A DNA stretch of 64,000 nt, taken from NCBI RefSeq assembly GCF_014199215.1, contig NZ_JACIJC010000002.1:248001-312000 (forward strand). Direction: 5' to 3'. Position 1 is the first letter of the stretch. Each line of letters opens with the position of its first letter. Under the pieces are notes generated by a model, which made no database searches, was not told the DNA's origin, and saw only the letters and a list, made by a program, of their open reading frames with translations. The translations under genes and the position numbers were made by a program. Shown one piece after another: positions 53,794-56,148 of the stretch. Source of the stretch: Sphingobium boeckii (GTDB lineage: Bacteria; Pseudomonadota; Alphaproteobacteria; Sphingomonadales; Sphingomonadaceae).

Positions 53794-54609
53794 TCAACCG
53801 CCCAACACCTCACGCACCCATGTCGGCACCAGCACGCTTGCCGGCCCCATCCGGGCATCATCGAAATAGACGCTTCCGGCGGACGGGTCGAGGTTCAGTT
53901 CAAGAGTTTTTGCACCATGATGCCGCGCGGTCCGTACGAACCCGGCCGCAGGATAGACCGCGCCGGAGGTCCCGATCGAAACGAACAGGTCGGCAGACGC
54001 GATCGCGCGGTCGATCCGGTCCATCTCATAAGGCATTTCGCCGAAGAAGACGATATCGGGACGCAGGGCGTGAGCACCGCAGCCGGAGCATTTAGGGGGC
54101 TGGAAACTCTTTGCGGGGGTCACACCCTCCCCGTTTGTCCCGAGCGAAGTCGAGGGACGTGGTGCGGGGGACAGACGTCCCTCGACTTCGCTCGGGACAA
54201 ACGGTTGTGTGGCAGCCATCATATCCCCCGCCCAGCGCACCGCCATCCCGCACGCCGCGCACAGCGCCGACAGCAATTCACCGTGCATATGCAGCACCCG
54301 CCTCGCCCCCGCGCGCTCATGCAGATCATCCACATTCTGCGTCACGATCAGCAATTCGCCCGGCCAAGCCGCGTCCAGCGCCGCCAAAGCCTCATGCGCC
54401 GCATTGGGCACGACCCCGGCCAACGCCGCGCGCCGCGCGTCATAGAAACGGTGCACCATCTCCGGATCCCGCGCGAGCGCCTCGGGCGTGCAGACATCCT
54501 CGACGCGGTGCCCCTCCCACAGCCCGTCCGGCCCCCGAAAGGTGGCAAGCCCGGATTCGGCCGAAATGCCCGCGCCTGTGAGGATCACGATGTTGCGGAT
54601 GTGGGTCAT
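53794..54609 (-). CDS. cobB: NAD-dependent protein deacylase (sirtuin) with a repeat-encoded insertion
   Basis: Sirtuin of 271 aa that removes acyl groups from lysines using NAD. The NAD loop TGAGISAESGLATFRG, the TQNVDDLHERAG segment, catalytic H109 in LHMHGELL, and the two zinc pairs CAAC (C117, C120) and CSGC (C174, C177) are all present. Between the pairs, residues about 136-161 (PFVPSEVEGRL ... STSLGTNGEG) are translated from a family A palindrome, lengthening the zinc-domain loop. A close bacterial sirtuin would be about 235-245 aa. It could act on Acs K608, as CobB does elsewhere. Confidence 0.93.
   Translation of the reverse strand: MTHIRNIVILTGAGISAESGLATFRGPDGLWEGHRVEDVCTPEALARDPEMVHRFYDARRAALAGVVPNAAHEALAALDAAWPGELLIVTQNVDDLHERAGARRVLHMHGELLSALCAACGMAVRWAGDMMAATQPFVPSEVEGRLSPAPRPSTSLGTNGEGVTPAKSFQPPKCSGCGAHALRPDIVFFGEMPYEMDRIDRAIASADLFVSIGTSGAVYPAAGFVRTARHHGAKTLELNLDPSAGSVYFDDARMGPASVLVPTWVREVLGG
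54131..54204. repeat. 74-nt palindromic repeat, family A, inside cobB
   Basis: CCGTTTGTCCCGAGCGAAG ... CTTCGCTCGGGACAAACGG, located in the codons between the two zinc-binding cysteine pairs. It contributes no stop in the cobB frame. Confidence 0.93.
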
Positions 54610-55165: not shown

Positions 55166-55239
55166 CCGTTTGTCCCGAGCGCAGTCGAGGGACGTGAGTG
55201 CAGGTGACCGCGTCCCTCGACTGCGCTCGGGACAAACGG
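55166..55239. repeat. 74-nt palindromic repeat, family A
   Basis: CCGTTTGTCCCGAGCGCAG ... CTGCGCTCGGGACAAACGG, between the divergent GNAT and dapB genes, starting 13 bases from the GNAT start codon. Confidence 0.93.
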
Positions 55240-56074: not shown

Positions 56075-56148
56075 CCGTTTGTCCCGAGCGCAGTCGAGGG
56101 ACGTCTGTCGCGGCACCAACGTCCCTCGACTGCGCTCGGGACAAACGG
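56075..56148. repeat. 74-nt palindromic repeat, family A
   Basis: CCGTTTGTCCCGAGCGCAG ... CTGCGCTCGGGACAAACGG, between the co-directional dapB and nth genes, ending 15 bases before the GTG of nth. Confidence 0.93.

Follow-up and report, generated by a model that had tools for sequence, protein, structure and literature searches.

A palindromic repeat dimer carried in frame by the zinc loop of a CobB-type sirtuin in Sphingobium boeckii, with comparable insertions in other sphingomonads

The window, a 64,000-nucleotide stretch of the Sphingobium boeckii genome, contains a CobB/Sir2-family sirtuin gene whose zinc-binding loop is extended in frame by a copy of a high-copy palindromic repeat. Comparable insertions occupy the same loop in other sphingomonads, and the whole is very probably explained by a REP-like dimer that, together with frame-restoring filler, survives in a permissive loop, an event that has recurred within this group. 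The features on which the argument depends are as follows.

53794..54609, minus strand: CobB/Sir2-family sirtuin gene, 271 aa and a TGA stop (Pfam, AlphaFold, Foldseek)
54250..54261, minus strand: first zinc cysteine pair CAAC, residues 117-120 (invariant columns)
54079..54090, minus strand: second zinc cysteine pair CSGC, residues 174-177 (invariant columns)
54106..54219, minus strand: net insert relative to congeners, 114 nt, residues 131-168 (coding alignment)
54131..54204, no strand assigned: repeat dimer of 74 nt, comprising CCGTTT, half-site, 18-nt spacer, half-site and AAACGG (arms 30/30 complementary)
54205..54219, minus strand: filler 5′ of the repeat in gene sense, coding MAATQ (not repeat-family sequence)
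54106..54130, minus strand: filler 3′ of the repeat in gene sense, coding about EGVTPAKS (not repeat-family sequence)

The minus-strand ORF at 53794-54609 is intact, and its product matches Pfam SIR2 at 144.7 bits (cut-off 24). All seven NCBIfam CobB/deacetylase models listed score below their cut-offs (e.g., 198.7 vs 320 and 285.4 vs 318), and in six of the seven the match is broken into two stretches; these scores lower the automatic naming of the protein and leave its fold assignment unaffected. As originally predicted, the reading frame is uninterrupted, with no stop or frameshift across its 271 codons, and the zinc and catalytic residues are kept: the window protein retains the columns that are invariant in 46 other sirtuins, including T11-G14, Q91, N92, D94, H109, the four cysteines and G213-G216. 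The zinc cysteines are spaced C-x2-C-x53-C-x2-C, which falls outside the Cys-X2-4-Cys-X15-40-Cys-X2-4-Cys of the human sirtuin core, as given in the available text of PMC5288547. When the source genome was searched with an insert-free query, the only two matches were the two halves of the window gene, so that no second sirtuin is present to cover for it. In the AlphaFold model, built from 47 sequences, the Sir2 fold is kept (mean pLDDT 82.5, pTM 0.81), and the top Foldseek match is CobB 6rxj, with a TM score of 0.78 by query and 0.90 by target. The CobB structures 6rxj and 1s5p (titled E. coli cobB) are the best fold and sequence matches, and the two aligned stretches are separated by 3 residues in 1s5p and by 41 in the window protein. 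Residues 134-165 have pLDDT values below 50, which are no proof of disorder, the other rows barely covering the insert; the natural reading of the model is that the insert would form a flexible loop at the zinc ribbon.

The original prediction placed repeat DNA between CAAC and CSGC, and this is confirmed: nucleotides 54131-54204 make up codons 136-160, a palindrome encoding PFVPSEVEGRLSPAPRPSTSLGTNG. Its estimate of about 26 extra residues proves too small, however, because comparison with relatives whose spacing is x15 gives a net insert of 38 codons (a loop of 53 vs 15 residues), or 114 nt, consisting of 74 nt of repeat and approximately 40 nt of flank. In a coding-sequence alignment the insert begins just after the Met130 codon, at loop residue 10, although its exact base boundaries are uncertain since the empty site is taken from congeners and not from a conspecific allele. 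By itself the 74-nt repeat would disrupt the frame, and it is therefore the filler of approximately 40 nt that keeps it. No donor copy with the 40-nt filler was found among the 40 of 147 genomic candidates that were scored (the first four letters of the query being inexact), and none of their matches extends more than 16 nt beyond the repeat. The two arms (54131-54160 and 54175-54204) are 30 nt each, 100% complementary and 14 nt apart. The 96-nt RNA spanning 54120-54215 has a predicted folding energy of -71.7 kcal/mol, whereas shuffled versions average -34.3 (z -10.2) and none of 200 is as good. This copy of the repeat is free of stop codons in all six frames.

With up to three mismatches allowed, the half-site has 14 matches in the window, against a mean of 0.00 in 100 shuffles, and 208 (101 + 107) in the 4.03-Mb genome, against 1 (0 + 1) for the reversed control. 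The consensus of 46 dimers read with their flanks, which are mostly the best-matching copies and not all (three of 43 listed for retrieval were omitted), is CCGTTT, half-site, 16 to 19 nt, half-site, AAACGG; outside these ends, a single base is common to more than 60% of the dimers. Arms are perfect (28 nt per arm) in 16 of the 46 copies, as they are in the window insert. The half-site has an inner stem of 5 bp with a 12-nt loop, all five positions being paired in 80 of 92 half-sites, and compensatory forms of the stem occur as GTGTC/GACAC (five) and GTCTC/GAGAC (one); a single half-site folds no better than shuffles. On the spacer side, CGTC is found in both halves of 29 dimers, in one half of 15 and in neither half of two. 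Each reading frame is open in 28-43 of the 46 copies, while the dimer length is a multiple of three in only four, from which it follows that filler is what saves the frame in cobB. Core matches are frequent in the congeners G001 (73 vs 9 in the control) and G002 (66 vs 11), low in G004 (17 vs 9) and near background in G003 (6 vs 4). The transposase family Y1_Tnp (PF01797) was not found in the source genome and is present in five of 14 control genomes. Rfam returned only microRNA models for the palindromes, far below gathering scores, and these were judged to be chance matches. In the window, three copies of the repeat lie within approximately 2 kb of one another, at 54131-54204, 55166-55239 and 56075-56148. 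The same genome also holds a second repeat class, CTGAGCCTGTCGAAG (up to two mismatches), with 109 matches vs 11 in the control, many of them as inverted pairs approximately 50 nt apart.

The empty site is readily found in relatives. All 29 relatives whose loci were read have the x15 spacing, including the three congeners G001, G002 and G004, whose CobB rows in the tree coincide with named records from Sphingomonas cavernae, S. colocasiae and Sphingomonas sp. LaA6.9; the orthologue alignment proposed with the original prediction is thus empty at the site in three congeners. A further member of the genus, G003, was excluded as a doubtful orthologue (sirtuin 44% identical). Among the named loci of the best 80 of 502 relatives, 77 have x15 (one row corrected by eye), and the other three comprise one x13 and two long loops with repeat inserts, x39 in a proteobacterial MAG (L079) and x51 in Sphingomonas gilva (L083). 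The loop of L137 holds an extra cysteine, the pattern giving x12 and inspection by eye x15. Across the 29 relatives and 80 named loci, no orthologue with an equally long unrelated loop was seen. At the insertion point, the empty loop of one congener (L002) contains GGGGC-ATG-GCCCC, a short inverted repeat that might serve as a target.

In a survey of the family, a sirtuin match was obtained in 375 of 397 genomes, and 27 of the 375, chosen by match number and E-value for their split or weak matches, were re-examined. Repeat inserts were found in two, G225 (x39) and G265 (x44), both of genus g102; the CobB rows of G225 and L079 are identical. G330 has an x20 loop in which no repeat was seen. Zinc-loop frameshifts without a repeat by eye (G011, G241) and a gene fragment (G109) were not counted as inserts, and, with G333 also set apart, the other re-examined genomes have x15. 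In G333 (L184), the contig stops within the cobB zinc loop, as if a repeat had broken the assembly, and this too was not counted. In G344, two cobB matches lie approximately 34 kb apart on one contig (C1:2605457-2640022), as if a large element had been inserted or the contig rearranged.

The inserts of the window, g102 and S. gilva all come after the Met at loop residue 10, and each has its matching dimer family in the genome that carries it. The family of the g102 insert has 184 and 190 core matches in the two genomes (controls 11 and 7). That of S. gilva is different: the insert has 16 further matches in its genome, whole or part, at 71-100% identity, and its repeat core has 79 matches vs 23 in the control. 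The right end of the insert is AACGGGGA in all three lineages. The cobB genes of G225 and G265 have both insert and flanks in common, whereas outside the repeat the sequence varies from copy to copy among 20 other g102 and nine other S. gilva copies (by eye). Their insert is therefore most simply explained by one event, an argument slightly weakened by two G225 copies (L204 and L205) whose alignments extend by a few bases into the filler on the left (starting at base 4 of the query). It looks as though different repeat families have entered the zinc loop in three or more lineages, and hence that this loop can absorb such insertions.

Independence of the events was assessed in a gene tree of 140 rows, from which the loops were removed and incomplete zinc regions and duplicates or paralogues (L031-L036, L191-L193) were left out. 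The window, g102 and S. gilva fall in three separate places: g102 forms a clade at 100/96, the window and g102 lie inside a 49-row group (90/95), and S. gilva lies inside a different 47-row group (89/84). In a 47-row tree, the best topology that unites the four carriers in one clade falls 61.8 log units short (AU p 0.027), the constraint having been picked after the larger tree was seen. S. horti, which has x15, pairs with G265 at 100/89, so that the two g102 carriers are not sisters and their common insert needs loss, transfer, a second insertion or tree error. Over 226 gap-free codons in 14 rows, the sirtuin bodies of G225 and G265 differ with dN 0.088 and dS 0.823, a ratio of 0.107; 15 other pairs range from 0.086 to 0.218, and the window against its three congeners from 0.128 to 0.174. 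The low ratio for the g102 pair suggests that insert-bearing sirtuins are kept under purifying selection, while the perfect arms of the window insert indicate that it may be young and that its pairwise dN/dS mostly predates it. The original prediction of a tolerated and domesticated loop is accordingly supported in its first part, indirectly, by purifying selection on the insert-sharing genes and an intact Sir2 model; domestication, taken to mean that the insert has acquired a use, finds no support. The g102 insert (L183, L185) is more conserved than the gene around it (69/75 vs 558/699 identical, Fisher p 0.008) and carries paired changes in one half-site, from GTGTC/GACAC to GTTTC/GAAAC. This higher conservation is not predicted by plain neutrality, and could stem from gene conversion with other copies, transfer or DNA constraint.

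Other repeat copies also lie in frame within genes. In the source genome, 18 of the 46 dimers fall within ORFs meeting the set limits, 21 ORFs in total, and all 21 were scanned with Pfam, an approach that misses genes lacking a Pfam family. Families flank the element on both sides in only two of them, cobB and an HrpB-type helicase (L039:49-2571, G000 C1), where a same-family element occupies residues 485-509 between Helicase_C and HrpB_C. The homocysteine methyltransferase match of one ORF sits entirely downstream of its element, and the remaining 18 ORFs have no Pfam match. In g102, ten of 20 retrieved copies lie in 15 ORF frames with at least 60 open codons on each side, ten of which were scanned. 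One (L220) has an in-frame dimer between Flavoprotein and DFP domains, in a protein that we take to be CoaBC-like. In L204, parts of an acyl-CoA dehydrogenase flank the dimer, the N-terminal match of 20.0 bits being below the cut-off of 22.9. L205 and L217 have a family match on one side only, and six frames have none.

The closest published counterparts are the GTAG and CGTC REPs of Di Nocera, De Gregorio and Rocco (2013; PMC3733652), which, in the available text of that paper, are high-copy head-to-head dimers located mostly outside genes. Some of those dimers lie in frame within genes, with examples from E. litoralis and S. alaskensis, and code for 20-30 residues; two Xanthomonas species have REPs at nearly the same position in recB (PMC3733652). 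Like the CGTC REPs, for which TGTC and CCTC variants are allowed, the cobB repeat forms high-copy head-to-head dimers, mostly extragenic, in an alphaproteobacterial host and with CGTC beside the spacer. That text describes no dedicated transposase for CGTC REPs, and in the genome with the cobB repeat Y1_Tnp, the sole type searched, was not found. The cobB half-site, however, has a 5-bp stem, a 12-nt loop and an AAACGG end, whereas the CGTC REPs printed there have stems of 8-9 bp with AT first, loops of 4-5 nt and mostly CCA tails (PMC3733652). As stem, loop and tail differ, the cobB repeat is not filed under CGTC REPs, though it works like one. REPINs and other RAYT-mobilised REPs have two REPs inverted around a spacer, a GTAG end and a RAYT (Y1_Tnp) gene. 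The cobB repeat likewise has two inverted half-sites around a spacer, but unlike the GTAG REP/RAYT system it ends in CCGTTT/AAACGG in a genome where Y1_Tnp was not found. Rickettsia palindromic elements (RPE) are inserted in frame in many unrelated genes, as described in the available portions of PMC10969869 and PMC3733652; by description alone they resemble the cobB repeat as in-frame palindromic insertions in conserved genes, and they differ in being approximately 150 bp long (PMC10969869), compared with 74 nt in a sphingomonad. In-frame REP dimers in genes are already published, and recurrence at one loop is the new part. The main text of PMC3733652 contains none of five sirtuin terms. Searches of open-licence PMC papers yielded neither a sirtuin case nor a single loop that distinct repeat families had entered in several lineages, and 12-mers of the repeat gave no match in a text search.

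In the preferred account, a copy of the high-copy REP-like dimer would have entered cobB after Met130, between the zinc cysteine pairs, and approximately 40 nt of filler arriving with the repeat would have restored the frame. The insert would then be translated as a flexible loop of approximately 38 residues protruding from the zinc ribbon. Its survival could be attributed to a loop that tolerates residues, a repeat copy free of stops in six frames and the purging of gene-breaking insertions, and at least two further, independent events of this kind would have involved other repeat families in sphingomonads. The insert-bearing window enzyme is presumably made and active; we infer both the route by which the repeat moved and the neutrality of the loop. 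That these were independent events, and not one ancestral insertion lost many times, is favoured by several results. All carriers have the insert at an identical codon position and the three lineages share the right end AACGGGGA, as expected from a single origin, yet every insert matches the repeat family of its own genome, the one-clade tree is disfavoured by the AU test, and x15 prevails in the 29 relatives and in 77 of the 80 loci from the best of 502 relatives; a single ancestral insertion is highly improbable. It is rather unlikely that the zinc-loop DNA is a preferred target of the repeats, beyond a mere place of survival. The common Met codon would fit such a target, as would the inverted repeat in the empty allele of the congener L002, and the probability that two further, evenly spread insertions fall in the same 15-codon loop of approximately 235 codons is (15/235) squared, about 0.004. 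Survivorship alone, however, is enough to make insertions cluster in a permissive loop, the inserts derive from different repeat families, no common target sequence or target duplication was noticed on casual inspection, and other in-frame inserts (HrpB, CoaBC-like) also lie between recognised domains.

A recent pseudogene, in which the insert disabled the enzyme and the frame is open by chance, would be consistent with the very strong hairpin, with a loop longer than the human-core spacing of 15-40 (available text of PMC5288547) and with perfect arms pointing to recent insertion, though these are found in 16 of 46 copies. It is nevertheless distinctly improbable given 271 codons without stop or frameshift, the retention of columns invariant in 46 other sirtuins, the divergence of insert-bearing relatives at a dN/dS of 0.107 and a genome that, by the insert-free query, has no second sirtuin to cover. 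The element could instead act as RNA or DNA, its hairpin slowing translation or transcription and so lowering sirtuin output. The predicted hairpin of -71.7 kcal/mol within a coding region is compatible with this, as are the paired changes and high conservation of the g102 insert, but the g102 comparison is one of two sequences and gene conversion would give the same pattern, so that such a role seems unlikely. A bolder proposal, that the zinc loop of CobB repeatedly receives REPs of different families, each giving rise to a loop specific to its lineage, and that this loop or its hairpin is kept because it alters sirtuin output, partners or substrates, is quite unlikely; the g102 insert, being more conserved than its host gene, would be the first sign of a kept loop that changes output or partners. 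Survival of REP-like dimers with frame-restoring filler in a permissive loop remains the preferred explanation.

For annotation, the case carries a warning that such an insert can drop a CobB-like protein below curated cut-offs. The literature on in-frame REP and RPE insertions, in the portions available, leaves open whether the resulting proteins stay functional. Here, one enzyme loop has been hit in at least three lineages, and one of the inserts is common to two species whose sirtuin bodies appear to be under purifying selection. This recurrence offers a natural system, simple to assay, for asking if repeat DNA can turn into harmless or useful protein sequence.
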